NCBI RefSeq assembly: GCF_000172155.1 | Contig: NZ_ABIZ01000001.1 | Span: forward strand, 7,225,105-7,289,104 | From: Verrucomicrobium spinosum DSM 4136 = JCM 18804 | GTDB lineage: Bacteria; Verrucomicrobiota; Verrucomicrobiia; Verrucomicrobiales; Verrucomicrobiaceae | Direction of reading: 5' to 3' | Length of the DNA: 64,000 nucleotides | Part shown: positions 31,161-50,766 of the stretch, piece after piece | How positions within the stretch are numbered: the stretch's first letter is position 1 | How the letters are laid out: every line of letters begins with the position of its first letter | The notes under the pieces: generated by a model | The model's database searches: none | What the model was told of the DNA's origin: nothing | The model's input: only the letters and a program-made list of their open reading frames with translations | Position numbers and translations under genes: made by a program

Positions 31161-31988
31161 CTATTCCTTCCTGGCTCTTCTGGCACGCAGGACGGTGACG
31201 CAGGCAAAGGCGAGAAGAAGCGTCCATGGTGGTACCGGAGCCCCGGGCACAGAAGCTGCGCTGTTTGCGCCCAACGCCCAGCGAGTGCCTGCCAGCGACT
31301 CGTTGGTCATCTGCTTGGTGGTGGTTCCGCTCACCTCGGCCACAACCACCCCAGGCAGGGCGCCATCAGCGAGTGGGTCCCATGCCGCCACGCGGGAAGT
31401 GTAGTTGTCGGATTCAAATCCAGAACCGGCCGTGTTGCTCAGAACCACCCGATCCCATGAAGTGGATGCATCCCCGAAGAAGTTGATAAATGCATAAGGC
31501 TCTCCTGCATTAAGTGTCTTGTTGCGTGGATTGCCATCGTATTCTCCCGGCAGCATAGACAGCAAACTGCCCGTCGTGAATTTGCTCACGATAGAATCCC
31601 CCAGATAGAAGGTGAGGACATTCTGCGCATCCCCCGCCGACCACCACATGCCAAAGTAGGCCGAAGCGGTGTCAAACGTGAGCGTGCTCTGATTGACAAC
31701 CACGCCAGCCCCCTGGAGAGAATACTTCGTCCCTCCGGGATTTAACGCGTCGGCAGCTCCGCCGTAAACATCTGCGGATTTGATGTACAACCTGTCGAAT
31801 GTGCCCACCCCCGCCCAGACCACGTTCTTGTTCACGCCATTGGCAAGATTGTTGAAGTCAAATATCTGCGTTCCCGTCAGGGTAGAGTTAAAATCCTTGG
31901 GTGCCTCCGCGTAAGTGATGACTACGCTGGCCGGGGCCGCCGCTGTAAGGAGGATCGTGAACAATGCGCTGAACAGCTGGTATTTCAT
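31161..31988 (-). CDS. Exosortase-dependent surface protein, APVPP-type C-terminal tail
   Basis: Secreted protein of 275 residues. Signal peptide about 1-20. The mature domain shows FGMWWSAGDAQNVLTFY and GEPYAFINFF, a pattern of a known family of exosortase-dependent surface proteins in cyanobacteria and proteobacteria. The C-terminus has APVPP at 250-254, then a hydrophobic helix and a basic tail RARRARKE. The position and form fit an exosortase sorting signal, but the motif is not VPEP. A dyad site lies at 32060-32074, about 70 bp upstream of the ATG. Exosortase 1 follows. Confidence 0.88.
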   Translation of the reverse strand: MKYQLFSALFTILLTAAAPASVVITYAEAPKDFNSTLTGTQIFDFNNLANGVNKNVVWAGVGTFDRLYIKSADVYGGAADALNPGGTKYSLQGAGVVVNQSTLTFDTASAYFGMWWSAGDAQNVLTFYLGDSIVSKFTTGSLLSMLPGEYDGNPRNKTLNAGEPYAFINFFGDASTSWDRVVLSNTAGSGFESDNYTSRVAAWDPLADGALPGVVVAEVSGTTTKQMTNESLAGTRWALGANSAASVPGAPVPPWTLLLAFACVTVLRARRARKE

Positions 31989-35710: not shown

Positions 35711-37144
35711 TTATCGGGCTTCATCGGCGGACATTGAGTGCTCGCGAATTCTCGCCGCCAATCCGTCGGTGATCTGGGCGAATTGTCCCGGGGAGTAGGA
35801 GGAGGCTCGCGCCGAGAAAATCAAATGAATCCCGGGGGATGATCCAGGCCAGAAGGTGCGCTTGAGATAAACGCCGTAGCCGGACACCACTTCCGACCCC
35901 ATCAAAAAGTACTCCCGGTACAGCACCTCTCCGGTGGAGACAACTTCTGGCTCGGAGGGGGTTGGCTTCAACTGCAGTCCTCGGTAGGCGGCACATACCA
36001 TCAGCGTATGGTGCCGCCCCCCGCCCTGCGGGCCGAGCCAGTCAATGCGGATGTCCCGGGGCGAATTGGAAAGTCGTATCTGATACTCCGCTGGTGAAAT
36101 GGCGATGGGATGGAGGGACTTGGGTGGTCCCCCGCCGACTGCATCAGACGTCCACCACTGGGAGACGAACGGAAGGACGAAGAACACGGTGGCGAGGCAT
36201 GCCTGACGGATCTTTACCGGAGCGTCAACACCGGCTAAAGCTCCCATCCCCGGCCCTCCAGACTTTCGGAGGCCTCCTCGCATTTCCCAAGCTGCTGCAC
36301 ATGCTGCAACCACGAATAGCGCGATGGACCACGGCTGGCCTGCTACAACCGGAATACAAAGAAACGCAAGAACAGGCACCACCAGGCTTCGCCAGAAGCA
36401 AAATCCTCCCCAGGGGGAAAGCATCAACCAGGGAAGCCAGAGCGACTCCATACTGGACCACGCGATCCAAAGCCCACCGACCGACCAAATGATCACCGTC
36501 AGGCGCTGCTCAAGGGTGGTTCTAAAATCACGGCCAGCCATCCTTGCTGCCAGGGCGCTCAAGGCAGCCAAGGTCACCCACAAGCCACCGGGCTCCGGCA
36601 GCCTGACTGTGATGAGGCTGAACACCGCCGCAAGGAAGACGGCCGCCATCCACCGCGACTGACGCCCTGCCGGACGTTGCACTGAGAGAAAGGCCATCAT
36701 GGGAGGAAGCACCAGCAGGAACCCGAGCAGGTAATGCAGCTGGGGAGTTTCCACTCGCGGCCACACCATCCACCGATACCCCAATATTGCGGCGACCCTC
36801 AAAACGTTAAGGACAAATGCCAGGGGGAGTGAAACTGCCATCTGAATGGCAAGCGTCCTTACATTCCGCGTGAGCACCCAGTTCGCGGCCGCGGCCGCCA
36901 TCAGCACATACAGGGTCGCGAATCCCGCGCAATCCACCGACCATGGCACCCTCAGGTGACCCACACAGATATTGCCTGCCTCCCAAATGATTGGCACGCC
37001 AGCGACATTCAGCATTTTAACCATCGCCATGGCCACGATGCCGGACACTCGATCCTCGCCAAAGTACCCCACGCCGCCTGTAGCGACAGCAAGGCTGGCG
37101 GCAGCGCCCCAGAGCCAAGGAGAGAGAACTTTCCCTTCAGACAT
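35711..37144 (-). CDS. Exosortase 2 with extended C-terminal periplasmic domain
   Basis: Paralogue of exosortase 1, about 477 residues from ATG 37144. The catalytic triad is Cys72 (DCAG), Arg116 (LNVLRV) and His137 (HYLLGFL): the same residue numbers as in exosortase 1. A multi-helix middle follows and a C-terminal domain with RHHTLMVCAAYRG and, in both, EYFL and FxPGxSPGxH blocks. The start is 5 bp past the stop of the CTERM gene upstream (37150-38055), so the two are translationally tight. The extra GT2 gene ahead makes a GT2-CTERM-exosortase operon. Confidence 0.9.
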   Translation of the reverse strand: MSEGKVLSPWLWGAAASLAVATGGVGYFGEDRVSGIVAMAMVKMLNVAGVPIIWEAGNICVGHLRVPWSVDCAGFATLYVLMAAAAANWVLTRNVRTLAIQMAVSLPLAFVLNVLRVAAILGYRWMVWPRVETPQLHYLLGFLLVLPPMMAFLSVQRPAGRQSRWMAAVFLAAVFSLITVRLPEPGGLWVTLAALSALAARMAGRDFRTTLEQRLTVIIWSVGGLWIAWSSMESLWLPWLMLSPWGGFCFWRSLVVPVLAFLCIPVVAGQPWSIALFVVAACAAAWEMRGGLRKSGGPGMGALAGVDAPVKIRQACLATVFFVLPFVSQWWTSDAVGGGPPKSLHPIAISPAEYQIRLSNSPRDIRIDWLGPQGGGRHHTLMVCAAYRGLQLKPTPSEPEVVSTGEVLYREYFLMGSEVVSGYGVYLKRTFWPGSSPGIHLIFSARASSYSPGQFAQITDGLAARIREHSMSADEAR

Positions 37145-37149
37145 TGAGG

Positions 37150-38055
37150 TCAGTTCATTGTATTTCCGGCCAGCTGGGACCGGGCTCGGGACCAAACCGT
37201 CAGCGCTATGAGACCCAATGCCGCAATCAGGACCATCGCAGGCGGCGCGGGTGCCGCTGGTGCCGGGAGCATGGGGGCACCGCCAGGTGCCGCCGCGGTG
37301 GAATCAGAGGTCGGTGGCAGCGGAGAAGCACTGGAGCCGACCGCAGCAGCCTCGGTGGCATTTACCACCGACTCGGAAATGACGGGTGCGGAAGAGGTGG
37401 ACGCAACGGAAGACGGCAGAGCTGACCACCCAATATTGGCATTCTCAAGAGCCAGGGCGTCACGGGCGCTCAATAGTGCGAAGTCTTCAAACCCTCCTGA
37501 GAAGTCAAAAAAAGCGTCGTTCGCAGACTTGGAATTACCCGTGTCCAAAAACTGGACCTCTATCCTGGCGGCAAGGACTTGCCCCTCAAATGCGATTCGG
37601 TTGAATGACAGCACGTCGTCGAAATGACTCAGGTCGAAACCTTGTGTGGCACCGGTGATCTGACTGCTCCCCCCTTGGCCGATCAAAGTTTGATAACTTT
37701 GAAGGGTGCTGCCACCAGCGGGTATCAAAACTGCCGACGTGTTGGTCGAGTAGTTGGTAAATACATACGTCCCCTTGCTGGTGACCACTACCAACTGGGC
37801 AGACTTCAGCGCTACTCCTACAGAGGCGTTGCTTTCGTTGCCAGCGGCATCTTCATTGACATCCACACCAAGCAACAAGGAGCCACTGGAGGTAACTTGT
37901 TTGGCCAGTTGATCACCAGTGATGTCCTTGAGGAGATTGATGGTGCCCGACCCTCGATGGATCTTGTCCGTCAAGTTGGTGGAAACCTGGGCACTGACTG
38001 CGAGCACAGTGGAAGCGAAAAAGAGGAGGGCGATAACGTTGTGGTGGATTCTCAT
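37150..38055 (-). CDS. Exosortase-dependent surface protein, APAPP-type C-terminal tail
   Basis: Secreted protein of 301 residues. A signal peptide ends near VLAVSA (about 22), a beta-rich body follows, then a Ser/Ala/Pro-rich linker (about 235-265) and the tail: APAPP at 268-272, a hydrophobic helix, and WSRARSQ. The tail order matches the surface protein at 31161-31988. The body has no recognised family. The ATG at 38055 overlaps the GT2 stop as ATGA, and exosortase 2 starts 5 bp after its own stop. The linker suggests a cell-envelope anchor that spans the polysaccharide layer. Confidence 0.86.
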   Translation of the reverse strand: MRIHHNVIALLFFASTVLAVSAQVSTNLTDKIHRGSGTINLLKDITGDQLAKQVTSSGSLLLGVDVNEDAAGNESNASVGVALKSAQLVVVTSKGTYVFTNYSTNTSAVLIPAGGSTLQSYQTLIGQGGSSQITGATQGFDLSHFDDVLSFNRIAFEGQVLAARIEVQFLDTGNSKSANDAFFDFSGGFEDFALLSARDALALENANIGWSALPSSVASTSSAPVISESVVNATEAAAVGSSASPLPPTSDSTAAAPGGAPMLPAPAAPAPPAMVLIAALGLIALTVWSRARSQLAGNTMN

Positions 38056-38951
38056 GGCGTGATGGTTGGCGAGAGGCACGTTGACTGGCGGAAAACCGGG
38101 GGGCTAACCGCCGAAGATAATTGAAAAGCGATCCAGGCCTGCAGCCGCTCCCGCATCACCAGCTTCAGCGCACTCGCCCCCGGCCTCCCCGGGTGCAAAC
38201 ACGCCCCGGCGAGACATTTGAAGGTGGACCATCCGCCCGGCCAGGCTGGCTTCAGGTGGTGCATTGCCGCGAGTTGAAAGGTCACCTGCGCAAAGAGCCG
38301 CTCCCGGCGGGGGCCATTCCGAACATAGGAGAAGGGGAATTCCAGCCGGCGGCAGATGAAGCCCGCTGCAAGCTGTTGCAAGGCCCAAGCATAGTCCTCA
38401 GCGGTAGGCAGAGATTCGTCAAAAGGGCATTTCTCCCAGAGGTTCCGCCGGATCATCCCCATGCTGTTGCTATAGATGGAGCCAAATTTGAGCCCCTTTT
38501 CCCGAACCTCGCCCAGATCAATGCTGTCACTGTAAAAAGTGTCTTCATCCCATTTCCCGCTGACACAGGCAACCGTGGGATCCTCCATGGCAGCGGTCAT
38601 GCGCTCCAAGACGCAGGGGTCATCCAAGACGGTATGTGAACTCAAGACCAGGACATAATCCGTATGCAAATGCTGCAATCCAAAGTTGAGCACACGGGAA
38701 TGCTCATACTCGTGCATCCAGCGCAGAACCACTCCACCCGACTGGCGGATCAGCTCACCACAAGCGGCGCAACCAGCGCTGTCCACCCCCAGGATCTGGT
38801 CTGGTTTTCGAGTTTGTCGATCCAGTGAAGCCAGCACGCCCGGTAGCGTCTCCGCCGACTGGGCATAGCGGATGAGCACGCCCACTGTTGGCTTTGGAGA
38901 TATGGCGTTCGCGATCACAAGGTCAGCATATCTGCGCTCGTACGGTCTCAT
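38052..38951 (-). CDS. Family 2 glycosyltransferase (GT-A fold)
   Basis: GT2-type enzyme of about 299 residues, likely transferring sugars in EPS synthesis. Seen: VGVLIRYAQ near 22, a GVDSAG nucleotide-site segment, and the late ED pair in TAEDYAWALQ. The segment where the DxD metal motif is expected reads LSSHTVLDD, so the metal-site form is unusual. ATG 38951 lies only 4 bp from site e; GTG 38918 is an alternative that would put site e 37 bp upstream, like the other sites. Its stop overlaps the CTERM gene by ATGA. Confidence 0.82.
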   Translation of the reverse strand: MRPYERRYADLVIANAISPKPTVGVLIRYAQSAETLPGVLASLDRQTRKPDQILGVDSAGCAACGELIRQSGGVVLRWMHEYEHSRVLNFGLQHLHTDYVLVLSSHTVLDDPCVLERMTAAMEDPTVACVSGKWDEDTFYSDSIDLGEVREKGLKFGSIYSNSMGMIRRNLWEKCPFDESLPTAEDYAWALQQLAAGFICRRLEFPFSYVRNGPRRERLFAQVTFQLAAMHHLKPAWPGGWSTFKCLAGACLHPGRPGASALKLVMRERLQAWIAFQLSSAVSPPVFRQSTCLSPTITP

Positions 38952-39010: not shown

Positions 39011-40399
39011 ATGAAGGACGTCGTCAAACTGCTGCTGGCCCTGCTGCTCTACGGAGGAGCCGCCCCCCTGCTGGGCCTGTGGCTGGCGAAGCACCGGATG
39101 GGCCAGCGGTTGCTGTTTGCGGGCATGCTGTTCATGACCGGCCTCAGGCCGGGAAACTTCATGATGATGATCGGGAGTGTGGAAACCTATAGAGGACACA
39201 CCAAAGGCTATGAGATCTCCCTCATCGAGGTTTTGGCCCTGGCTCTCATTGTCGCGGTGCGCCGCAGTGCCCCGCAGCTGGGGCGGAAGGGGGTTCCAGG
39301 GCTCTGGCTGTACCTGCTTTGGTGCACGGTAAGCCTCGCTTCGGCAATCGACTGTGCCATGCCATCATACGCTTGGATGGCTGCCACACGCTTTTTCAAA
39401 GGAGCGCTCATTTTTGCAGCGGCCGCCCTGTGCCTGCGAGATGAGGACGACGCCCGCTATGCGGTGGGTGGCCTGGCCCTGGCCCTGTTTCATCACGGCC
39501 TGCTGTGTCTGAAGATGCGCCTTCTGGACGGTTCGTGGCAGGTGAAGGGGTGGTTCGAGCACCAGAACCCCATGGCCATGTGGTGCTACCTCGGAGCACT
39601 CCCCGTGCTTGCCGTCGCTCTCTCCAGGCAGGCAAAGGGATGGCTGCCGTGGATCTGCCTGGCGGGATACGGCGGAGCCGGGCTTTGCATTCTGCTTTCG
39701 GTATCTCGGGCCGCGCTGGGAGCATATGCCGCGGGTTCGCTCATGGTGTTGGGCATGGCCTGGCTGTATGGAGAGAGAAGACGCGCATTGTGGTTCACCC
39801 TCGCCGGTGCCCTCGCAGGAGTTCTGGTCTTCGCCTTCGCGCTGGACTCGTTCAAAGCCCGGCTCAATGAGGTGGCCGCCACCAGCCAGGATGTGGAGGA
39901 GGACCTCCGTGACATCTTGAACCGCCAGAGTGGTGCCATGCTCCATGACCATCCTGTCAAAGGGGTGGGCTGGAACAACTTTGGCATCATGAACAGCCGT
40001 CCGGGTGGTGATGCCTACAGTGAGATACTTGAGGAGTGGGATCGTGAGCGGGGCTTTACCATCTACGATGAGAACTACTACCAGAACCCCCTTACAGAGA
40101 GCCTGTACTGGCTGTGGCTCGCGGAAACGGGCTACACAGGCTTTATCTCATTCGTTCTCTTTTGCGCCTTCTCGCTATGGTGCGCATGGAGAGGGGCGTG
40201 GCCGGTCCGGGGCACCCTGCTCGGCATGGTCGGCCTCGCGCTCGCAGTGGCGCTGACCCTCTGCTACCTCCACGGCATGGTTGAACGGATCCTCACCCAG
40301 ACAAAGAATCTCTCCCAGTGGCTCATGCTTGCAGGAATGGCCTCCGGCCTGGAGCTCAATCGCCGCAGCGCCGCGCACAGGGAATCGCGTTCAAAGTAG
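39011..40399 (+). CDS. O-antigen ligase/Wzy-like polymerase
   Basis: Polytopic membrane protein of 462 residues with about ten to twelve helices. The Wzy_C-type region with the long periplasmic loop is clear: LSVSRAALGAYAAG near 229-243, and HPVKGVGWNNF near 316-326, the family's motif. It would polymerise lipid-linked repeat units or ligate them. It is the only polymerase candidate of the EPS cluster seen here. It is divergent from the GT2 gene and convergent with a GT4 gene only 23 bp away. Confidence 0.87.
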   Translation: MKDVVKLLLALLLYGGAAPLLGLWLAKHRMGQRLLFAGMLFMTGLRPGNFMMMIGSVETYRGHTKGYEISLIEVLALALIVAVRRSAPQLGRKGVPGLWLYLLWCTVSLASAIDCAMPSYAWMAATRFFKGALIFAAAALCLRDEDDARYAVGGLALALFHHGLLCLKMRLLDGSWQVKGWFEHQNPMAMWCYLGALPVLAVALSRQAKGWLPWICLAGYGGAGLCILLSVSRAALGAYAAGSLMVLGMAWLYGERRRALWFTLAGALAGVLVFAFALDSFKARLNEVAATSQDVEEDLRDILNRQSGAMLHDHPVKGVGWNNFGIMNSRPGGDAYSEILEEWDRERGFTIYDENYYQNPLTESLYWLWLAETGYTGFISFVLFCAFSLWCAWRGAWPVRGTLLGMVGLALAVALTLCYLHGMVERILTQTKNLSQWLMLAGMASGLELNRRSAAHRESRSK

Positions 40400-40422: not shown

Positions 40423-41763
40423 TCATGCCGCCACCGGGTTGGCGAAGCCAAGCGGCGTACCCCAGTCAGGCTTGTCGCTTCGCCGGCCCAGCACCCACTC
40501 ATACACCTGCCGGATTTGTTCTGCTTTGGCATCCCAGGTCAAGAACTGCCTCACATGAGCTTGCGCATTTTTACCAAATGACGCCAGCGGCGCGGGATCA
40601 TTTGCCAGCTGGCTCAGAAGCTCTCTGAGATCACGGACAATCTGGTCACGAGATTGCAATGGGAGCACCCACCCACAGCCGGGCGGCACCAACTCGGGTG
40701 GTCCACCATGGTCGAGCACGACCGGGGGCAATCCCAGCGCCATGGCCTCAAGAACGGCACCTCCCCCGAACTCTCTGATACTGGGAAAGGCCAGAACATC
40801 GGCGCTGCACAGACGCGCCTGCAAAGACTCGTGGGGCACCCACCCATCCAGTTGCACCGCCCCTGCCAGGCCCAGACGCTCGCTTTGTGCCCTCAGGGAG
40901 GGCATCTCTGGTCCGTCACCGATGATGTCCAGCTCCACCTGGCCCGCCTTGATCAAGGATGCTGCCGCCTCCAGCAGCATCTCCACCCCTTTCAGAGCCA
41001 CCAGTCTTCCCACAAAGGCAGCTCGCAAGGGCCCTGGCGTTCGAGGCGGTCTGGCGACTAAAGGGAACTGGGCCGTATCAACCGCATTTTCCGGAATGAG
41101 GATGCAGCGTGACCTCAGATGTTCAGGCATCTCCCGGAGGGTGGTGCGTGAGCCAGCCAGGATGGCGGCGCTCAGCTCCCGCGTGCGTCGAATGCCGGGC
41201 TGCAGCCGGTACAGAGCTCTGAGCATGCCGGCCCGATCCCTCTCCTGCCTCCGCACCGACTCGAACCCTGCTGGCCAGGGCACGCCTCCATTGAGCGGTC
41301 CCAACACAAAAGGGATGCCAAGAGCTGCCAGCTTGCCGGACAACCAGCTGGGGGTGGTAGGAGATAACGGAAGAATCCGGTGTACCAGATCGAAACGCCC
41401 CCCTCTCAAGTCCCCTTCAAACTGCCTCCAGAGAGCCCGCTCGAAGAACGGATACGCAAGGTTGGATAATGCTGCGTACAAACTCCAGCCAAAGCTCTGG
41501 CTGCCGCTAAGCAGCTTGGAGAGTTGCCACGCCGCCCCCTGGGCCTTGCGTGAATTCACGGCCGTGAACTGCTCTGCCCCCATCCCCGCGCGCAGGAAGG
41601 CATCCCGGTTGCGCAGCTCTGTGACGATGTGCGCATCTGTCACCCTGCCCACGGCCCGGGCACACCCCCATCCCACCAGAGAGGCACTGGTGAGCTCAGG
41701 ATTGGCCCCCTCCGCAATGATCAACGGACGGATCGAACGAGAGGTGCTGGGTTCCGGGATCAT
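40423..41763 (-). CDS. Family 4 glycosyltransferase
   Basis: GT-B enzyme of 446 residues that probably adds a sugar to the EPS repeat unit. It has the donor-binding C-half with SIREFGGGAVLEAMALGLPPVV (E-x7-E pattern), AAFVGRLVALKGVEML, and an acceptor-binding N-half. The N-terminus does not have the typical KILxV start. The ATG at 41763 overlaps the stop of the export lipoprotein gene by ATGA. It is the last gene of the long minus-strand EPS unit. Confidence 0.9.
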   Translation of the reverse strand: MIPEPSTSRSIRPLIIAEGANPELTSASLVGWGCARAVGRVTDAHIVTELRNRDAFLRAGMGAEQFTAVNSRKAQGAAWQLSKLLSGSQSFGWSLYAALSNLAYPFFERALWRQFEGDLRGGRFDLVHRILPLSPTTPSWLSGKLAALGIPFVLGPLNGGVPWPAGFESVRRQERDRAGMLRALYRLQPGIRRTRELSAAILAGSRTTLREMPEHLRSRCILIPENAVDTAQFPLVARPPRTPGPLRAAFVGRLVALKGVEMLLEAAASLIKAGQVELDIIGDGPEMPSLRAQSERLGLAGAVQLDGWVPHESLQARLCSADVLAFPSIREFGGGAVLEAMALGLPPVVLDHGGPPELVPPGCGWVLPLQSRDQIVRDLRELLSQLANDPAPLASFGKNAQAHVRQFLTWDAKAEQIRQVYEWVLGRRSDKPDWGTPLGFANPVAA

Positions 41764-42881
41764 GGTTTTGCAGAAGCGCCAATGTCCACATTCACTCCCA
41801 CGTTGGGGCTCTCAGAGCTGACGGCATTCCCCCCTTCATTGGCCGCCACAATCCGTACAAAGGTGTTCAATGCCTCCCTGGCAAAGTAACTGGGGGATAA
41901 CTGCCCCTCACCTGGAACGAATACAATGTCTCCGGGCTCCAGGCGGATGTTGGTGGCAGCCCCCTTCATGATTTCCCTGGCATTCACGACCGCCACCTGC
42001 GGATTGGTCAGTGAGCCTCTCACAATGCTCACGCGCGTCAGATCGGCATCCGGCCGCAGCCCCAGCCCGCGGCCCAGGGCCGCCATCAAATTCATCTCAT
42101 TCATAAAGCCGACCGGTCGCGGTTCCATGACCGCTCCCAACACGTAAACTTCGTTGGAAAGTGATGAGGGCAGAAAGATGTAATCATCAGGCTGCAAGTA
42201 GATGTTCTGGCTCAAGTCACCGTCGCGGAGCAAGGCTTGAAAGTTCACCGGGATGATGCGCCCCTTGCGAATAAAAAAGCTGTGCTCGAGATCAGCGAGT
42301 TCTTCAGTCGTTCCCGTGAATCGTGACGTGAACAACCCTCCGGCCAACGAGATGGCATCCAGCACCTGCATGGGCCGCGTCAGCGGATAAATCCCCGGTT
42401 GATTAACTCTTCCCAGCACCCACACCCGCTGGCTGCGAGCATCAACAAGTGAGACACTCACTTGAGGCACCCGGTAGTACCGCTTGAGGGCCGCCTCCAA
42501 CCGATTTTGAGCCTCCACCAATGTAAGCCCTCCGACGGAGATTCCCGGCAACAAGTTGAAATAGATCTTGCTGTCAGGGGTGACAAACGTCTCGGCGCGA
42601 CTTCCCGTCTCACCCAGGATCTCGATGTCCAACTTATCCCCCGGTCCCAGACGATAAGGAGCTTGAGGGGCGTTCAGAAGTGCGGGGTCCACCCTGCTCT
42701 GCAGGCCGGCGGCGGTGAATTTGGCACTCTCCGCCCGGGGATCAAATTTGCTGCGGCTGCTCGTCTTGCACGCAGGCAGCAGCGCCAGAAACATCGCAAG
42801 CCCAACCCAGCACCAGCCTGGTTTCCGGCAATGGCTTGCCGGGTCTTTCACAACGCCATCGCGACACGTGCCAGAACTCAT
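41760..42881 (-). CDS. Polysaccharide export (OPX/Wza-like) lipoprotein
   Basis: Outer-membrane polysaccharide export component, 373 residues. A signal with lipobox LLPACK places the lipid Cys near 38. A Poly_export domain follows (YRLGPGDKLDIEILG), then SLBB-like repeats (GRVNQPGIYPLTRPMQVLDAI and VLGAVMEPRPVGFM). It shares many C-terminal blocks with the OPX part of the 1010-residue fusion, so the operon has two OPX domains. Both its start and stop overlap neighbours by ATGA. Confidence 0.93.
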   Translation of the reverse strand: MSSGTCRDGVVKDPASHCRKPGWCWVGLAMFLALLPACKTSSRSKFDPRAESAKFTAAGLQSRVDPALLNAPQAPYRLGPGDKLDIEILGETGSRAETFVTPDSKIYFNLLPGISVGGLTLVEAQNRLEAALKRYYRVPQVSVSLVDARSQRVWVLGRVNQPGIYPLTRPMQVLDAISLAGGLFTSRFTGTTEELADLEHSFFIRKGRIIPVNFQALLRDGDLSQNIYLQPDDYIFLPSSLSNEVYVLGAVMEPRPVGFMNEMNLMAALGRGLGLRPDADLTRVSIVRGSLTNPQVAVVNAREIMKGAATNIRLEPGDIVFVPGEGQLSPSYFAREALNTFVRIVAANEGGNAVSSESPNVGVNVDIGASAKP

Positions 42882-43567
42882 TCCGCGTTATGATGCAGAT
42901 ACTTGATGACCGCCTCAGTCCGTGATCTGACGTGAAGCTTTTGGTACACGCCCTTCAGATAGTCCCTGACAGTTTCATAGCTGAGCGAGAGGTCATATGC
43001 AACTTCCTTGGGAGCCATGCCCTGTGCCAGCCGTTCCAGAATTTGCGCCTCCCGGGGGGTCAGACCTGGAATGGTTCTTTTTTCCACCTTGGGCGGTTCC
43101 TGAAACGACTGAATGAGCAGCCGGGAAATCTCCTGGCTCAGCGGGGCACCGCCCTCACTGGCAGCTCGAATGCCAGCAAGAATCTCCCCGGGCTTGGACC
43201 CCTTGAGCAAATAGCCATGCGCCCCAGCCCGCAAAGCAGCAAACACTTTGGCGGAGTCATCGTGCACCGTCAGGACCACAAACGCCGCACAAATGAGTTT
43301 TCCCGCCAAGCGGGAGATGAGCTCTGCTCCGTTCATCGCGGGCAACTCCAAGTCCACCACCACCACGTCCGGAGTCAATGGCGGGAGGTCGTGGAGGGCC
43401 GTTTCGGCCTCCTCCCAGCCGCCCAGATACTCAAAACCATGCCGCGGATTGCCTAACAAGCGCTCCAGGAAGAGTCTCATCACGGGATCATCCTCCACCA
43501 CAGCGACCTTCAAGGTGCGGGGATGTTTGGAATGCGTTCCAACAGCGTCATCACTCTCCTCGACCAT
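42878..43567 (-). CDS. LuxR/NarL-type response regulator
   Basis: DNA-binding response regulator of 229 residues. The receiver (about 20-135) has VVEDDPVM, the phospho-Asp in VVVDLELPAMNG, the Thr in VLTVHD and the Lys in LLKGSKPG. The C-terminal HTH is GerE-like (LTPREAQILERLAQGMAPKEVA...YETVRDYLKGVYQKLHVRSR). ATG 43567 is preferred to the far upstream start. It lies within the EPS operon between the two OPX-coding genes, and is the only free DNA-binding regulator in the surface region, so it is a prime candidate for binding the dyad sites. Confidence 0.92.
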   Translation of the reverse strand: MVEESDDAVGTHSKHPRTLKVAVVEDDPVMRLFLERLLGNPRHGFEYLGGWEEAETALHDLPPLTPDVVVVDLELPAMNGAELISRLAGKLICAAFVVLTVHDDSAKVFAALRAGAHGYLLKGSKPGEILAGIRAASEGGAPLSQEISRLLIQSFQEPPKVEKRTIPGLTPREAQILERLAQGMAPKEVAYDLSLSYETVRDYLKGVYQKLHVRSRTEAVIKYLHHNAE

Positions 43568-43648
43568 GAACGGAACAAAACACGACACGGAGAAAACATC
43601 AACAAAAGAACATGCTTCACGAGACCAGAGCAGTCGCAAGGGGTGGAA

Positions 43649-46600
43649 TCATTTGATGAAGGGACCCACATTCGTACCCGCCCAAGTGGCCACCGCACTT
43701 TGCAAAAAGGCATTGATGGCAAAACCCGCGAGTTCCTCTGCGCGGGCCCATGGCTTGTCAGCGACATAAAGAATATCCTTGGGCTCCAGCCGGAAACCTT
43801 TTTCCCTGCCCTCCAGCATGGCTTCCAAATTGGCCACATGCAGCTCCGGCTTGTGAAGCGAGCCACGCACCACCAACACCCTCTTCGTGTACGCCTTGGG
43901 GGTGAATCCTCCCGCCTGGGTGACGGCACTGACCACCGTGGTGTAGGACAGGAGACCCTGGGTGCCCTGCATCTTCACGTTCCCGAGCACATAGATCTCA
44001 TTGGAGTTCGCCGAGGGGAAATACAAGTAGTCCCCCGCCTGCACACGAACATTCTGGCTCATGTCCCCCTTCAAGAAAAGCGCCTCCATATCGACCCCCA
44101 CCCGCGCATTCCCCCGCATGAGAAAACTGCGCCCCAGGTCCGCCAGTTCCACGGTGTTCTGCTGGAACAGCCCGGTTTCCAGGCCGCCCGCTTCCGCCAC
44201 AATTTCGACGAGGCTCATGGGCCGGTCCAGGTTGATCGCGCCCTTCTTCACCACCTTGCCCAACACATAAACTTTGCGGCTTTGGAAGGAACCCGGAGTC
44301 ACCACCACGACGGCGTTCTTGTAATACTTTGCCACGCTCTTGTTAAGGGCGGAGCGCAACTCATCCAGCGTCAGCCCCGCCGCCTTCATCCCCTGCACCT
44401 GTAGGTACGTGAGAGTCCCATCTGGCGCGAGCGAGACAGCGGAGCGGCTCAGCTCTGGCCTGCCCATCACCGCGATGTTCACACTATCACCGGCACCCAG
44501 CGTCAGCGGTGGCTCCTGGGCGACAGCCGCCCCTCCCACCGCCATCCACAAGCCCGCTGAGAAAATGCCTAGAGCCAACCGGTTCAGAAGGGGGATTCGG
44601 AACGGCTTGGGGCGATCCAACACGGCTCCAATCAAGCGGCATCTGCTGGAGAGGAACGGTTCGATCAAGCGTTGCATCTCACCCCCCCGGATTTCCCCGG
44701 AAGGGACGAGCAAAAGGAGGTTGGGCATGGTCTCTGCCGCAAGCAATGTCCGAGGAGCCCCAAGGTCCGTCAGTTGCACGAGCACCACTGCGGGAGGCAC
44801 GGGGCGGGACTGCTCGACGAACTGGCCCCACCGGCGACGGCCGTCGCTGTCCCAGGTCCATTTCTCTCCCTGGGGGATCAGAGTCACCGCCTCAGGGGAG
44901 AGCTCCGCAATCTCCAATCCTGCTCCCCCCATCACTTGATCCAAAGAAGCCGCTCCTGTGTCAGCACCCTGTTGCTGCGGCATCCAAACGACCCGGTGGC
45001 CTCGCAAGGCCGCAGCACTGGCGAGGATCATGGGGAGCTCGCCCGATGCCTGCTTGGTATCTGCATCAAGGATCCCGCACACGAGCATGCCACTGGGGCT
45101 GGGGCGAAGCAGGGGGTGGATCTGCGTCCATGTGTGGAATGCCCATGCAGAGGTTTCCGGGTCCCCCGCTCCCCTTGTACGGGGACTCGCCGCCACGTAG
45201 CCAAGACCGGTCACCCGTTTTAACATGAACCGGGAGGAAATGGTTGTTCCAAGTCCCGTCAGGAGGATGCTCGTCATCGCCACCGCACCCATGCCGCCAG
45301 CAAACCCCGCGGCTCCGGCCATGGCCAGCTTCTTGACAGGTTTTTCCACGGTGACCTCGGCAGGTCTGGGCATTGACAGCAACCGGAAGGGATTGGTTGC
45401 CCTCTCCTCCTGGAGCGCCGCTTCCCGTTGCCGGGCTTCCAGGAGAGATCGCGATGTCTCCAGCACCTTCTTCTCTGAAAGTATCCGGGCGTACTCAAGT
45501 GCCTTGCGCGGCAATTGCTCGAGTTTGGCCGCCAGCTCAGCGCGCACGCCTTGCAGCTTCTCCAGTTGCTTGCCGATGACTTCTTTTTCCGCGCGGAGTT
45601 TGACGATGTCCAAGTAGAGGCTTTCCGCCAGGGGGTTCTCTCCGGGTTTGGGGAGAACGTTGGAGTTTTCAGGAGCCATCTTGAACTCTGACTCAGCCAC
45701 CAGAAGCCGCTCCCTCGCCTCGATCACGGCGGGATGTTCATTCGTGTAACGCAGGAGCAGCCTGGCCAGTTCATCTTGTGCATCCCGCAGTTTTGCTGAT
45801 GAACTGGCAGCCTTGCCCAGTTCCTTCTCCAAACTCGCGATTCTCAGGTCGATCGTTTCGTAATCCAGCCGGGCGGTCTCGTACTTGAGACCAAAGTTCC
45901 CCAACTCAGCCAGGTAGGCATCCATCTGCTTGTCTGCATCCAGCAGATTTTCGCGTCTGGAGTACTCCAGCAAATGCCGGGCATTCTCCTCCAGATCCAG
46001 GTCCACCCTGGCAAGCTGACCACGCAGGAATCGATTCATCTCAGCCGCTTCCTCACTCTGGAGATTCCGGGTGAAGGCGAGCAATTCCTCTACGAATGCC
46101 TGCAACACCTTCAACACAGACGAAGCGTCCACATCGGAGGTGTAGGAAACTTTGACCACATCCGTGTTTCGTTCCGGCTGGATGATGAGCCCCCCTCTGA
46201 TCATGCCTTCGGAATATTCTCCATTCAGCCGCAAGGCAGTTTTCTCGATGACCGTGAAACTCCGTGCGATGACGCCGAGGTTCGGGATCGTCAGATCATG
46301 CGGCTGGTAAGGATCACCGCCTTCCGACTGGCGCAGGGAATTGGCCGGAGCCTGCTTGATGATCTGCGCGACAGCGATGTAATGAGTGCTGAACCGGCGC
46401 TCCCCATAGGCTACGAAAAGCGCCGCGACAACCACGCCAGCCAGCAGCATGAGGATCCAATGCGCAAAGGCAGCATCCACCACCCTCCACGGGTCAACAG
46501 GCAGGGGAAACCCGGGAGTGGCTCTGGGTGCCTCACCCTCTGCGCCCGCCCCTGGTGCCGCCTCCCCAGAACCAGGCGGATCGTCGTAGGAGCCTCCCAC

Positions 46601-46681
46601 CTGGAGGTCTTTGGCCGGTGTCTCGTGGGCACGCTTCTTCTGGATTGCGCTAAACGCCAGCTTGGGTGGATCCGGAGACAT
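43649..46681 (-). CDS. PCP (Wzz-like)-pseudokinase-OPX export fusion
   Basis: Single 1010-residue protein. Order: cytoplasmic N-tail (1-70), helix 1 (about 73-91), a Wzz-like periplasmic PCP domain with long coiled coil (about 100-450), helix 2 (about 452-476), then a cytoplasmic part (about 490-700) shaped like a BY-kinase but with GILDADTKQASGE where a Walker A would be, so it probably cannot bind ATP normally. Helix 3 (about 702-722, signal-like, ending AVAQ) leads to an OPX domain (about 725-1000, LTLGAGDSVNIAVMG, SLBB units). PCP and OPX are normally separate proteins. The operon also has a lipoprotein OPX. Confidence 0.88.
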   Translation of the reverse strand: MSPDPPKLAFSAIQKKRAHETPAKDLQVGGSYDDPPGSGEAAPGAGAEGEAPRATPGFPLPVDPWRVVDAAFAHWILMLLAGVVVAALFVAYGERRFSTHYIAVAQIIKQAPANSLRQSEGGDPYQPHDLTIPNLGVIARSFTVIEKTALRLNGEYSEGMIRGGLIIQPERNTDVVKVSYTSDVDASSVLKVLQAFVEELLAFTRNLQSEEAAEMNRFLRGQLARVDLDLEENARHLLEYSRRENLLDADKQMDAYLAELGNFGLKYETARLDYETIDLRIASLEKELGKAASSSAKLRDAQDELARLLLRYTNEHPAVIEARERLLVAESEFKMAPENSNVLPKPGENPLAESLYLDIVKLRAEKEVIGKQLEKLQGVRAELAAKLEQLPRKALEYARILSEKKVLETSRSLLEARQREAALQEERATNPFRLLSMPRPAEVTVEKPVKKLAMAGAAGFAGGMGAVAMTSILLTGLGTTISSRFMLKRVTGLGYVAASPRTRGAGDPETSAWAFHTWTQIHPLLRPSPSGMLVCGILDADTKQASGELPMILASAAALRGHRVVWMPQQQGADTGAASLDQVMGGAGLEIAELSPEAVTLIPQGEKWTWDSDGRRRWGQFVEQSRPVPPAVVLVQLTDLGAPRTLLAAETMPNLLLLVPSGEIRGGEMQRLIEPFLSSRCRLIGAVLDRPKPFRIPLLNRLALGIFSAGLWMAVGGAAVAQEPPLTLGAGDSVNIAVMGRPELSRSAVSLAPDGTLTYLQVQGMKAAGLTLDELRSALNKSVAKYYKNAVVVVTPGSFQSRKVYVLGKVVKKGAINLDRPMSLVEIVAEAGGLETGLFQQNTVELADLGRSFLMRGNARVGVDMEALFLKGDMSQNVRVQAGDYLYFPSANSNEIYVLGNVKMQGTQGLLSYTTVVSAVTQAGGFTPKAYTKRVLVVRGSLHKPELHVANLEAMLEGREKGFRLEPKDILYVADKPWARAEELAGFAINAFLQSAVATWAGTNVGPFIK

Positions 46682-46695
46682 CTGCTAAGAGGGAA

Positions 46696-47541
46696 CTAGT
46701 TCGATGAAGCGACAAGAGGATGCCGGTGGTGCAACAAATCTCCCATGACAAGATTCACATGTCGGGAATCCACCAGGGCAGAGCCTACACACCAGGCGTG
46801 TTCCAGGGCCAGCTTCGCCAGCCGGTTCATCTCCCGAGGCACCCCATGCGCGAGAGTGTGCACCAGCGCCATGGCATCTTCCGCAAAGGCCCCGTGACCG
46901 GAATGGCCCGCCACCTTGAGCCGGTGCTCCAGATAGCGCACGCCGTCTTCAAGTGGCAAGGGCCCCATGTGAAAACGCACCCCGATGCGCTGGTCGATGG
47001 ACGGTATCTGGCGCACCATCTCCGCCAGCCGCGGCTGCCCCACCAGAACCACGGTGATGAGCGAACGTCCGCCGCCGTTGAAGTTGGTGAGCCAGCGCAA
47101 TTGCTCGATCGAGGCGGGCTGGAGATCCTGCGCCTCATCAAGGATAAGGGTATGGTGGCCGCGGCGTTGGACTGCGCCGGCCAGACACTGTCCGAATCTT
47201 TCCAGCAAAGCAGGCAACCCAGGCAGAACATCGCCCGCCCTCCCCTCGAGCTTTTGAATAAGAATGGGGAGCAGGTCCGCCAGCTCAAACCCGCCGTTTT
47301 CAAGACTCAGGAAGGGCATCTGCGCGCCCCTCAGGTGCCGCTCCAGCATGGAGCGGGTGAGGGTTTTGCCACTTCCCACTTCGCCGGTGAGCATGGCAAA
47401 GTTCAATGTTTCCTCCTGCACGGCGTAGAGCAACCGTTGCAGGGCCTCTGTGTGCGTTTCCGAAGGATAGAAGTAGCGGGTATCCCAGGCCGCCTCGAAC
47501 GGTTTTTCCTTGAGGTGCCAGTGGCTGAGCAGATCCGACAT
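46696..47541 (-). CDS. XrtA/PEP-CTERM-locus type AAA ATPase (ExeA-like)
   Basis: Secretion-type ATPase of 281 residues. It starts MSDLLSHWHLKEKPFEA; Walker A is GEVGSGKT near 50-57 and Walker B LILDEAQDL near 134-142. The later GVPREMNRLAKLAL is typical of the ExeA/AAA_22-like family, a subgroup of which is a regular member of EPS/exosortase loci. Its role there is unproven and may be regulatory or in export. ATG 47541 is chosen; it stops 14 bp before the fusion gene. A dyad overlapping a promoter-like box lies just upstream. Confidence 0.9.
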   Translation of the reverse strand: MSDLLSHWHLKEKPFEAAWDTRYFYPSETHTEALQRLLYAVQEETLNFAMLTGEVGSGKTLTRSMLERHLRGAQMPFLSLENGGFELADLLPILIQKLEGRAGDVLPGLPALLERFGQCLAGAVQRRGHHTLILDEAQDLQPASIEQLRWLTNFNGGGRSLITVVLVGQPRLAEMVRQIPSIDQRIGVRFHMGPLPLEDGVRYLEHRLKVAGHSGHGAFAEDAMALVHTLAHGVPREMNRLAKLALEHAWCVGSALVDSRHVNLVMGDLLHHRHPLVASSN

Positions 47542-47558
47542 GATGGCTGGGGAGGATC

Positions 47559-47598
47559 GAGGTACAGGTTCAGTATAATCGATGGAGACCTGTACCTC
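47559..47598 (-). promoter_or_regulatory. Perfect 11-bp inverted repeat around a -10-like box
   Basis: GAGGTACAGGT (47559-47569) is mirrored exactly by ACCTGTACCTC (47588-47598). The 18-bp spacer contains TATACT on the minus strand (47577-47572). It sits in the 64-bp gap ahead of the ATPase gene, so it looks like an operator covering an internal promoter of the EPS operon. No good -35 is seen. Confidence 0.6.
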
Positions 47599-47605
47599 CG
47601 CAAGC

Positions 47606-48793
47606 TTATACTCCCACGCCTTCCGGCAGTGCCCCAGAGGCCAGCCCGGCCAGGGGACGGGCCGCCAGTTCCCGGTAGAGCTGCACGAGACGCTGTGCAT
47701 TGCTGCGCCAGCAGTATTGCTGGGCGTGAAGGAGCCCCCGACTGGCGAGTTCCGATCGCAGGGCTTCCTGGGTGGCCACTTCCGCCAGAGCATGCGCCAT
47801 GTGGGGAATGCTCTCCGGATCCACGGCATACGCAGCCGGGCCCGCGACTTCCTCCAACGACCCCCGCGTGGAACTGATCACAGGAGTGCCAGAAGCCATG
47901 GCCTCAACCGGGGGCATGCCAAATCCCTCGAAGAGTGAGGGATACACGAAGGCCGACGCGGCCCGGTAGAAATCCGGCAACTCGGCATCACTCACAAAAC
48001 CGGGCGTCTGGATGTCCTCAGCGCAAGGTGAATGGCGGACGGCGGCGTGGATGTGCTCTGCACCATGCCAGTCACTTCCAGCCAGAACGAGCTTCCATGG
48101 AGAAGCGGTTGATTGCTTGAACTGTTCAAAGGCCCGGATGAGCCTCACATGGTTTTTGGCAGGGTGCTCCAGTCTCGAGACGTACAGGAAAAAAGGCGTC
48201 TCATGCCCGAGGCGGCGCGAGGTGCGTTGCAAAGAAGCGGCTCTTCCCCCCGGGTGAAAGCGCTTGTGATCCAGCCCGTTCAGGATGACCGTCTGGCGGG
48301 ACACCGGGATATGAAAGAACTTCTCAATATCCCGGGCCGTGTTCTGGCTCACGGCCACCACCGCTTCCTGGCGGCCCGCCAGCCAGCGCGCACCCACCCG
48401 CCCGTAGAGCATGCGCAGGGGGTCATACTTCGCTTTTACGTGAAACGGAGCCAGGTCGTGAATGGTTGCCACCTTGGGACACGGGGCACGCCAAAGCATG
48501 CGCCGGTAGCTGGGAACATGCACCACATCCACCCGCTCCTGCTTCAACCACACGGGCAGCGCCATTTGATGCCACAAGATATTCCGGGCAGGTGAGCGGT
48601 ATCGCTCTGGCACCGTCACCAGCCGGGCCCGTCCTCTCGCAAACTCAAACAAGGGCAGATCTTCCTCCAGGACCAGCAAATTGAGCTCGTCTCCGGTCTC
48701 CAGTTCCAACATCGCCTGGACAAGCGCAAACACATATTGCGCCACCCCCGTTTTGCCTCTTTGAATGACGCTGGTGGACAATGCAATCTTCAT
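47606..48793 (-). CDS. Family 4 glycosyltransferase
   Basis: GT-B enzyme of 395 residues, likely in EPS repeat-unit assembly. N-half marks include [19 protein letters not shown] and [14 protein letters not shown]. The C-half shows the [21 protein letters not shown] nucleotide block and [18 protein letters not shown] with the E-x7-E motif. Typical mannosyl- or other hexosyltransferase class; the sugar cannot be told. Overlaps the GT4-WecG gene by ATGA. Followed by the regulatory gap ahead of the ATPase. Confidence 0.93.
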
Positions 48794-50766
48794 GGCCGGC
48801 TGCAGGAATGATGGTTGGATGAGACCAGTTCACGCAGGATGGCCCAAGCGAAAACCACCAGGCCAACTGCATAGCGCCGGGCCAGCCGCCGTGGCTCCTG
48901 GAACAGGCGAAACACCCACTCCAGCCCCAGGCCATGCATCCACCGCGGTGCGCGCCGTTTCGCTCCGGCCAGGAAATCGATCGTGGCACCCACACCGATG
49001 CTTACCGGGACCCCTGTAGCATGCGCATTCATGTCGATCCACTTCTCCTGCTTGGGACAGCCAAAGGAGACCAGCAGCAGATCCGGGCGGGCGGCACGGA
49101 TGCGCTGGCAGATCCCCTCGTTATCCATCTGGGCCAGGGGCGCGTAGGCGGGTGACTCAGCCCCTGCGATGCACAGCCGTGGATGCCGGGCACGCACGTT
49201 CTTCATGGCTGCCTCCAGCACTTCAGGAGCCCCACCGAGGAAATAAACCCGCCAGCCCCTGCCCTCCGCCTCATGCAAAAGGCGCGGCACCAGGTCTGAG
49301 CCCGCCACTCGCTCCGGAAGCGGACGGCCCAAAAGCCGGGACAACCAGATGAGAGGCGTGCCGTCACAAACCACCAACTGAGCCCGCTTCAGGATATCCG
49401 CGAGTTGTGCATCCTTTCTGGCCTGTACGACAAAGTCCACATTGGCTGTCGCCACACAGGAAGGGATACGCTCCTTCACCATGTCAGCAATCCCGGCCAC
49501 TGCTTCCTCCATGGTTACAGGGTCAAAGGACACGCCGAGGAGCTCCTGACGAGACGGAGGAGCAAACCGCTTCTCGTATTCACCCGCAAGGAGGTGACCT
49601 ATGCCCTTCCACGAGAAACGTTCCCGGGCCACCGCGCAGCCTGCCACAGCGACCCGCTCACGCAGCGCCGGATCGGTGAGGAGGCGGTACATCTGTTGGA
49701 CAAAAACTTCCGCTGTGTCAGCGAGCAAGATTTCCTCGTCAGACTTCAGGTCCAGACCCTGCGCGCCTATCGACGTTGAAACCACCGGGGTGCCCATGGC
49801 GAGGCTTTCGACGATTTTCAGACGCGTGCCCCCTCCAATTCGCAAGGGGACCATTTGCAACCAGGCACCGCGATAGTAAGGGCGCACATCAGGCACACTC
49901 CCACAGACTTGCACCTCCTCCCGCTTCGCATAAGCCTGCACTTCTGGAAGAGGATTCTTCCCCACAATCTGCACGCGCAGATGGGGAACGAACATGCGAA
50001 GACGCTCATGAATCTCCCCGAAGTACCATCTAAGGGCATCCACGTTAGGGGTATAATCCATCGCACCGCAGAACAACACGGTGGGCCTCACCGCCTGCAC
50101 GTCTGGCTCGGCGGCTGCGTCAGGCTTGAAGTATTCCAGATCCACCCCGTTGGCCACCACGGAGACCGGCACCGACCGACTCACGTACCTGCGGACAAAG
50201 GTCTTGTCGTCTGGCCCGCATAGCACCTCAAGACTGACCCGCCGTGCAGCCCGCTTCTCATACAGCCACATTTTTGTGATGTTCTCCCAGGACAGCAACC
50301 TGTCCTTCCACGAACGCGCCATGATGGAGGTGCTCTGCACCTGGTATTGCAAATCGACGCGGCTGCGATCCATGGACAGGGGGATCTCGCGATGCCGTGT
50401 CATGAAGTACTGGGCCATGACGATGTCGCAGACGTGGACCATGTCGTATTTCCTTTCCCTAAGCGCCTTCTCGAGGGTCAGCTCAAGTTGAGGCGATTCC
50501 CAATGGCGGATGGTGACGGGCACCAGATCCAACAACCTGCGCAACCCCAGCTTGGGCCAGGCAGGATGAGTGAATGGGACCACCTTCACCTCACGGCAGA
50601 ACTCCTCAAACACAGGCCGATGCTCTGCACCCTCACCATTCTCGCACAAGGCAATCAGATCAACGGTGTGTTCTGACGCCAGAGCCTTCAGAAGGTGAAA
50701 GGTCCTCTGGAAGGTGCCCCGATCCAGGGGATACGGCAGATACGGATAGACGACCAGAATGTTCAT
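48790..50766 (-). CDS. Two-domain glycosyltransferase: GT4 + WecG/TagA/CpsF
   Basis: Fusion of 658 residues. Residues about 1-395 form a GT4 enzyme (NILVVYPYLPYPLDRG start, MVPLRIGGGTRLKIVESLAMGTPVV). Residues about 405-645 are a WecG/TagA/CpsF (GT26) domain (ATANVDFVVQAR, CDGTPLIWLSRLLG, SFGCPKQEKWI, IGVGATIDFLAGAKRRAPRWM). In most loci these are two proteins. The fusion would pass the glycan from one site to the other. Both ends overlap neighbours by ATGA, so it is well embedded in the operon. Confidence 0.92.
   Translation of the reverse strand: MNILVVYPYLPYPLDRGTFQRTFHLLKALASEHTVDLIALCENGEGAEHRPVFEEFCREVKVVPFTHPAWPKLGLRRLLDLVPVTIRHWESPQLELTLEKALRERKYDMVHVCDIVMAQYFMTRHREIPLSMDRSRVDLQYQVQSTSIMARSWKDRLLSWENITKMWLYEKRAARRVSLEVLCGPDDKTFVRRYVSRSVPVSVVANGVDLEYFKPDAAAEPDVQAVRPTVLFCGAMDYTPNVDALRWYFGEIHERLRMFVPHLRVQIVGKNPLPEVQAYAKREEVQVCGSVPDVRPYYRGAWLQMVPLRIGGGTRLKIVESLAMGTPVVSTSIGAQGLDLKSDEEILLADTAEVFVQQMYRLLTDPALRERVAVAGCAVARERFSWKGIGHLLAGEYEKRFAPPSRQELLGVSFDPVTMEEAVAGIADMVKERIPSCVATANVDFVVQARKDAQLADILKRAQLVVCDGTPLIWLSRLLGRPLPERVAGSDLVPRLLHEAEGRGWRVYFLGGAPEVLEAAMKNVRARHPRLCIAGAESPAYAPLAQMDNEGICQRIRAARPDLLLVSFGCPKQEKWIDMNAHATGVPVSIGVGATIDFLAGAKRRAPRWMHGLGLEWVFRLFQEPRRLARRYAVGLVVFAWAILRELVSSNHHSCSRP

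Follow-up and report, generated by a model that had tools for sequence, protein, structure and literature searches.

How can a single polypeptide serve both ends of an envelope-spanning exporter? The question is raised by a gene of Verrucomicrobium spinosum DSM 4136 that lies in a 64,000-nucleotide stretch of contig NZ_ABIZ01000001.1 (positions 7,225,105 to 7,289,104), hereafter the window. In one frame it encodes a polysaccharide co-polymerase (PCP), a domain resembling bacterial tyrosine kinases (BY-kinases) and an outer-membrane polysaccharide export (OPX) protein. The initial annotation envisaged a mature single chain linking the two membranes. This is probably wrong, since the comparative evidence favours a split by signal peptidase into PCP and OPX. 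We consider it likely that the gene encodes a polyprotein that is cut into a membrane-bound PCP-pseudokinase and a periplasmic OPX (OPX1), which would act with a separately encoded lipoprotein OPX (OPX2).

The frame, on the (-) strand, is unbroken over 1010 codons, from an ATG at 46681 to a stop at 43649-43651. No obvious Shine-Dalgarno sequence precedes it and conservation is poor over the first ~55 residues, so that this ATG is a provisional start. Comparisons were made across 28 fused proteins, the window's included, with L053 taken in place of the truncated L023 and the contig-cut L096 left out; the frame of L038 opens at a contig end. In the window protein Pfam detects the OPX part only, with Poly_export (residues 721-795), SLBB_2 (803-887) and SLBB (896-940) above their gathering scores, and allowing E values as high as 1 brings no match to Wza_C. 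With a limit of E = 0.1, all 28 members match Poly_export and SLBB_2 and 27 match SLBB, as expected of OPX proteins; Pfam's Wzz, unmatched in the window protein, is found at that threshold in only seven. The PCP is picked up by TIGR03007 (residues 187-500, E = 3.4e-17, 61.9 bits against a cut-off of 278.85), and the OPX part by TIGR03027 (103.8 bits against 180); TIGR03028 reaches 73.9 against 262.65. By these curated NCBIfam cut-offs the fusion is not a member of the XrtA/EpsEF equivalogs.

A profile of the 28 proteins, run against the PDB, finds Wza (8.7e-35), Wzc (2.5e-16), PslE (1.4e-15) and the CapAB BY-kinase (1.9e-6). An AlphaFold2 (AF2) model of the window protein has a mean pLDDT of 77.3 and a pTM of 0.38, which makes its domains trustworthy and not their mutual arrangement; Foldseek, run with it, likewise matches Wzc. 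Residues ~63-696 of the model align with Wzc (Z about 19, with a large rmsd), 478-693 with CapAB (Z 19.1, rmsd 3.1, 211 residues), 719-975 with Wza (Z 17.9, rmsd 13.5) and 723-891 with another OPX protein (Z 18.3, rmsd 1.8). Model and Wzc alignments together give the PCP-2a layout, two transmembrane helices (TM1 and TM2) around a periplasmic helical domain, followed by a kinase fold. The model also predicts a C-terminal helix in OPX1 (981-1008). It shows no clear amphipathic moment (mean 0.165 against 0.136 in shuffles) and was dropped as a sign of an outer-membrane pore. PCP, pseudokinase and OPX thus do share one intact frame, as first annotated. The converse suspicion, that a sequencing frameshift hides two genes, is ruled out by 27 other distinct fused copies in related Verrucomicrobia; because these come from other assemblies, an artefact of sequencing or assembly joining two genes has a negligible probability.

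The kinase-like domain combines the CapAB fold with a loss of the catalytic motifs, and qualifies as a BY-pseudokinase. In the window the Walker A Gly-Lys-Ser/Thr is lacking, no A' Asp is seen by eye, and the Walker B position, an Asp in the BY-kinase consensus, holds Gln (VLVQL), with Glu in many relatives (VELPP). No Tyr occurs from residue 690 to the predicted cut, so that none of the catalytic features of a PCP-2a protein (functional Walker A, A' and B, and a Tyr-rich tail) is present. Elsewhere the Walker A position reads [GN]EGK[ST] (L021, L093, L023, L056, L095, L097) or [GN]EGR[ST] (L054, L055, L057, L058, L060-L062, L066 and others); in the window and its nearest relatives the motif is gone. 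In contrast, the separate PCP of L142 retains GEGKST and CVDFDA. Because Walker A, the A' and Walker B Asp residues and the Tyr tail are all missing, control of the window protein by tyrosine phosphorylation is unlikely; its loss, suggested in the initial annotation on the grounds of Walker A, is well supported by sequence. The Walker motifs of BY-kinases are described in the accessible part of PMC12004946, where the scaffold role proposed for EcpK offers the closest published idea found for the pseudokinase. Assembly is probably scaffolded here and not governed by tyrosine phosphorylation.

Does the third hydrophobic segment, between pseudokinase and OPX, behave as a signal peptide? A cleavage-site matrix was trained on the 27 OPX1 proteins encoded by separate genes (see below) and on no others, and was applied to the 28 fused proteins with TM1 as a control of the same orientation and with 1000 shuffles. 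All 28 segments have a basic n-region, net positive in 27, and 26 are less hydrophobic than TM1 of the same protein (mean 19-residue Kyte-Doolittle hydropathy, KD19, 1.48 against 1.96; p = 2e-6, uncorrected for relatedness). The mean site score is 4.0 bits, against 0.94 (sd 0.43) in shuffles, none of which scores as high; with the set thinned to 14 representatives the figures are 4.27 and 1.24, again with none of the 1000 as high. The fused sequences being related, p-values are indicative only. The 28 sites themselves were chosen by eye, the objective test being matrix against shuffles; they have Ala at -1 in 27 proteins and Gln at +1 in 16. The window segment ends AVAQ, with a likely cut, by eye, after residue 721. 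Conserved n-, h- and c-regions are accordingly found inside the frame across the fused set, and the impression that the helix ending AVAQ looks like a signal peptide is borne out. The genome encodes a Peptidase_S26 protein. Strict AxA motifs were also counted downstream of TM1 and of the third segment, which proved uninformative because TM1 regions are Ala-rich; the matrix test was used instead.

How far the GxGD motif, where the OPX fold starts, lies beyond the by-eye cut bears on what would happen without cleavage. The third segment would then be a stable anchor, with each OPX protomer tethered beside its PCP at the inner membrane and OPX2 forming the outer-membrane ring. The single frame, seen in the window and 27 other loci, suits this arrangement, as do the length and hydrophobicity of the window segment and the linkers of 30-103 residues in 16 of the 28 proteins. 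In the other 12, the window's included, OPX begins only 6-9 residues past the site, whereas in Escherichia coli the extended Wzc forearm contacts domain D1 of Wza, according to the accessible part of PMC12881504. Helices of the PCP model span residues 186-244 and 350-426 (59 and 77 residues; taking 1.5 angstroms per residue, they would measure some 90 and 115 angstroms), so that, with so short a linker, an uncut OPX could hardly reach the PCP tip from the inner membrane. The signal-peptidase-type site, well beyond shuffles, and the existence of relatives with the parts as two genes also speak against a permanently uncut chain, which we regard as unlikely.

Several observations nevertheless count against cleavage. 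In seven of the 28 the internal segment scores no higher with the matrix than TM1 of the same protein, and the sites in L055 and L056 are weak. TM1 also beats its own shuffles (0.84 against -0.29, with 9 of 1000 as high; 1.07 against -0.06, with 39 of 1000 as high, for the 14 representatives), so part of the site signal must come from hydrophobic-then-polar order alone. An uncut tether is possible where the linker has 30-103 residues, and the window segment (KD19 1.83, ~20 residues) might itself serve as a transmembrane anchor. As a guide to how the domains are arranged the AF2 model, at pTM 0.38, is unreliable, and the support for a cut is comparative.

Both arrangements, fused and separate, occur among the relatives, a point on which the initial annotation had called for comparison. 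Where the genes are split, their order is PCP, OPX1, OPX2. In L048, for example, a PCP of 755 amino acids is followed after 16 bases by an OPX1 of 317 amino acids with an N-terminal signal peptide ending SSAQ, and then by OPX2. Such a signal peptide is visible by eye in 26 of the 27 split OPX1 proteins, in several behind an overlong first start; L071 is unreadable. The split set numbers 27 and not 28 after removal of L024, a fragment of the window's own gene, and where a genome occurred in two collections its copies were merged on the identity of the OPX sequence. In the 19 loci with both genes visible on the same strand, OPX1 lies in frame 2 relative to PCP in 15, in frame 1 in two and in frame in two. 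The last, L054 and L059 (gaps of 3 and 15 bases), have the two genes parted by one stop codon; placed among fused rows of the OPX1 tree, they apparently arose by the splitting of a fusion. The PCPs of L054, L063, L064 and L065 stop a few residues past the GxVLN strand, without a Tyr tail, near where the signal peptide starts in fused proteins.

The OPX1 tree contains 56 rows (29 fused, L096 now included, and 27 split) and is rooted with nine OPX2 sequences, OPX1 and OPX2 separating with 100/100 support. Its deepest branches are split, and split rows (L054, L064/L065, L059/L078, L071) sit among fused groups. The fused label requires at least five changes (the starred branches force four; the shuffled mean is 21.6), so on this tree the two forms switch repeatedly. 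Several backbone supports are modest (84/52, 85/31), and the direction of single changes is something we infer. The switching also bears on partial or regulated cutting, by which the full chain would coexist with both products as an assembly intermediate or tether. The intermediate hydrophobicity of the segment is in keeping with that idea; there is no sequence evidence for regulation, and because the fused form switches repeatedly to separate genes, a tether would seem dispensable. We give partial cutting a low probability.

OPX1 might alternatively be made, in addition, from a start codon within the frame. In 24 of the 28 fused genes, the window's included, an ATG, GTG or TTG lies no more than 30 codons before the h-region, in a few cases with a Shine-Dalgarno-like stretch upstream. 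These codons are not at one place, and four genes (L021, L037, L057, L093) have none, for which reason an internal start was rejected as the general source of OPX1; we find it very improbable.

Returning to cleavage as the preferred reading, the gene would supply a polyprotein for a Wzx/Wzy-type exopolysaccharide exporter. By homology to Wzc, TM1 and TM2 would place the PCP in the inner membrane with the pseudokinase folding in the cytoplasm. The Sec machinery would then recognize a signal peptide in the third segment, OPX would be moved to the periplasm and signal peptidase I would cut after residue 721. One product would be a PCP-pseudokinase of ~721 residues, its C-terminus a signal-peptide remnant in the membrane and not a Tyr-rich tail; the other, made one-for-one with it, a periplasmic OPX1 of ~289 residues. 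OPX1 would bind at the PCP tip; together with the lipoprotein OPX2 it would supply the remaining stretch of the path to the outer membrane.

The phyletic distribution of the fusion was assessed in genome samples, with counts that are lower bounds, taken from loci among the matches listed, 30 per search. In the sample of the window's class, 45 of 384 genomes match at 1e-30, at least 13 of them with both parts in one frame; in that of its order, 67 of 288 match at 1e-60, at least 19 of them fused (G522 is contig-cut and holds both parts; G440, also contig-cut, was assigned to neither form). In the phylum sample, 91 of 387 genomes match at 1e-40. Eight named relatives are Verrucomicrobia metagenome-assembled genomes, including Verrucomicrobiaceae and a Prosthecobacter. 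Three further genomes from the window's genus (G001, G002, G003; one only 76% complete) give no match at 1e-5, for which reason the locus looks patchy and accessory, and the plasmid collection contained no match. Some candidate fusions were rejected: L138 and L139 have PCP and OPX in different frames of long open frames, and the frame of L140 holds an OPX match only. In L142 (2378-5011, (-)) an OPX runs, by eye, into a flippase-like protein through apparently out-of-frame sequence, probably a draft-assembly frameshift.

The fusion lies in an exopolysaccharide cluster (Table 1). On one side are the XrtA-type ATPase, directly upstream, and glycosyltransferases; on the other follow the response regulator, OPX2, a glycosyltransferase, the Wzy_C protein and an exosortase-like gene. 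Among 13 other fused loci compared, a glycosyltransferase-4 (GT4) gene comes after OPX2 in 11. The window's OPX2 is 35% identical to the fusion's OPX; mixed oligomers of OPX1 and OPX2, a possibility raised in the initial annotation, may or may not form. Its Pro places LPAC outside a strict lipobox pattern, which fits 44 of the 55 members of the OPX2 set. Of the 11 others, the window's included, ten show, on inspection by eye, a Cys in a near-lipobox setting, and the remaining one, L063, is an OPX1 fragment. The downstream lipoprotein OPX of the initial annotation therefore stands as a probable lipoprotein.

Table 1. Features of the fusion gene and its principal neighbours in the window (residue numbers refer to the fusion protein).
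Feature	Coordinates	Strand	Evidence
Whole fusion open reading frame, 1010 amino acids: PCP, BY-pseudokinase, putative internal signal peptide, OPX1	43649..46681	(-)	Single intact frame
TM1 of PCP, residues 75-96	46394..46459	(-)	AF2-model helix, hydropathy
PCP periplasmic helical domain and TM2, residues 97-476	45254..46393	(-)	TIGR03007, Wzc matches
BY-kinase-like domain without catalytic motifs, residues 478-693	44603..45250	(-)	CapAB structure and profile matches, motif decay
Predicted internal signal peptide, residues ~695-721, ending AVA/Q	44519..44599	(-)	Hydropathy, site matrix, by-eye site
OPX1, residues 722-1010, the mature protein should the chain be cut: Poly_export, SLBB domains, predicted C-terminal helix 981-1008	43652..44518	(-)	Pfam, profile, model
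LuxR-type response regulator between fusion and OPX2	42878..43639	(-)	Pfam; beside fusion in 10/13 other fused loci
Separate export protein OPX2, probably a lipoprotein (LPAC seen by eye)	41760..42881	(-)	Pfam; in 13/13 other fused loci compared
Wzy_C/O-antigen-ligase-type protein, which may be the cluster's polymerase or ligase	39011..40399	(+)	Pfam
AAA ATPase resembling XrtA-system-associated ATPase, directly upstream	46696..47829	(-)	TIGR03015, 151.9 bits, below cut-off of 324.5

Other genes of the window deserve mention. Two are exosortase-like: the one at 35711-37195 (-) reaches 317 bits against XrtZ, whose cut-off is 475, and is accepted by TIGR04178, and the other (29622-31076, (-)) resembles it by eye. 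Adjoining these are genes at 37150-38079 (-) and 31161-31988 (-), whose products have N- and C-terminal hydrophobic stretches and a basic tail and are possible sorting substrates; the 37150-38079 protein has no family match. At 48790-50766 (-), a GT4 glycosyltransferase (TIGR03087-like) and a WecG/TagA/CpsF glycosyltransferase share one frame.

OPX proteins are also found behind other partners in the phylum. Two loci outside the window's class, L137 (1236-4304, (+)) and L141 (2133-5081, (-)), encode PCP and OPX as a single frame; immediately ahead of OPX they show, in place of a signal peptidase I site, the lipobox-like motifs SSGC and FTGC, respectively. The PCP part is detected by TIGR03007 only in L137 and by the fused-protein profile only, at 26 bits, in L141. 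A glycosyltransferase-2 domain shares a frame with OPX, again with an internal lipobox, in L050 (2217-4289, (+); genome G048; MTGC), L136 (1498-3549, (-); G432; LTSC; 68% identical to the G048 protein) and L144 (1-1959, (-); G760; LAGC; frame cut at its end). With the G048 protein as query, two of 39 genomes match at 1e-40, G048 itself and G432. These frames apparently represent another export polyprotein, of lipoprotein type. Such lipobox cases suggest a recurrent device in the phylum, though they are few and their genomes lie in many contigs. It is a tentative proposal, perhaps near even, that internal signal peptides recurrently serve polyprotein processing for polysaccharide export there, with OPX placed behind a PCP-pseudokinase (signal peptidase I site), other PCPs (lipobox) or a glycosyltransferase (lipobox). 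If so, one translation event would provide the inner and the outer envelope with matched parts. In the PCP-pseudokinase kind, the signal-peptide remnant would be a membrane anchor at the C-terminus of the pseudokinase, where classical kinases have the Tyr tail.

The export of capsules and exopolysaccharides still poses the questions of how PCP and OPX pair, in what stoichiometry and with what timing, and a natural one-to-one polyprotein, toggled in evolution, would directly test whether the two rings need matching or tethering. The decayed kinase adds to the cases of probably phosphorylation-independent co-polymerases, and annotation that expects signal peptides at the N-terminus would miss internal ones. 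The parts of the system are known; their arrangement as a PCP-OPX fusion was not found in the literature searched, outside which most subscription papers lie, so that an earlier mention is possible; in PMC11340318 the word 'fused' refers to cloning and to an unrelated domain. To our knowledge, bacterial polyproteins cut at an internal signal peptide have rarely been described. FbcH, the cytochrome b/c1 polyprotein of Bradyrhizobium japonicum, is made as one chain, which signal peptidase divides at an internal signal peptide; it belongs to a respiratory complex, and we draw a mechanistic parallel only, claiming no homology.

Among export systems, the BY-pseudokinases EcpK and HfsB, which work with PCP-2 proteins, resemble the fusion in having a BY-kinase fold without Walker motifs or Tyr tail; a scaffold role is proposed for them (PMC12004946). 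The accessible part of that paper also cites a PCP and pseudokinase in one polypeptide and, unlike the case here, mentions no OPX part or internal signal peptide. The periplasmic OPX proteins of beta-barrel systems and the class 3 OPX proteins, as described in the accessible parts of PMC9601211 and PMC9603273, are like OPX1, which has no detected Wza_C and is presumed periplasmic; unlike the fusion, they are encoded by separate genes. The Wzc-Wza capsule exporter (PCP-2a and OPX) shares with the fusion the folds of PCP, kinase domain and OPX, and there D1 of Wza meets the helical arm of Wzc (PMC12881504, accessible part). The fusion differs in producing PCP and OPX from one frame, in its degenerate kinase without a Tyr tail and in being accompanied by a second OPX gene.

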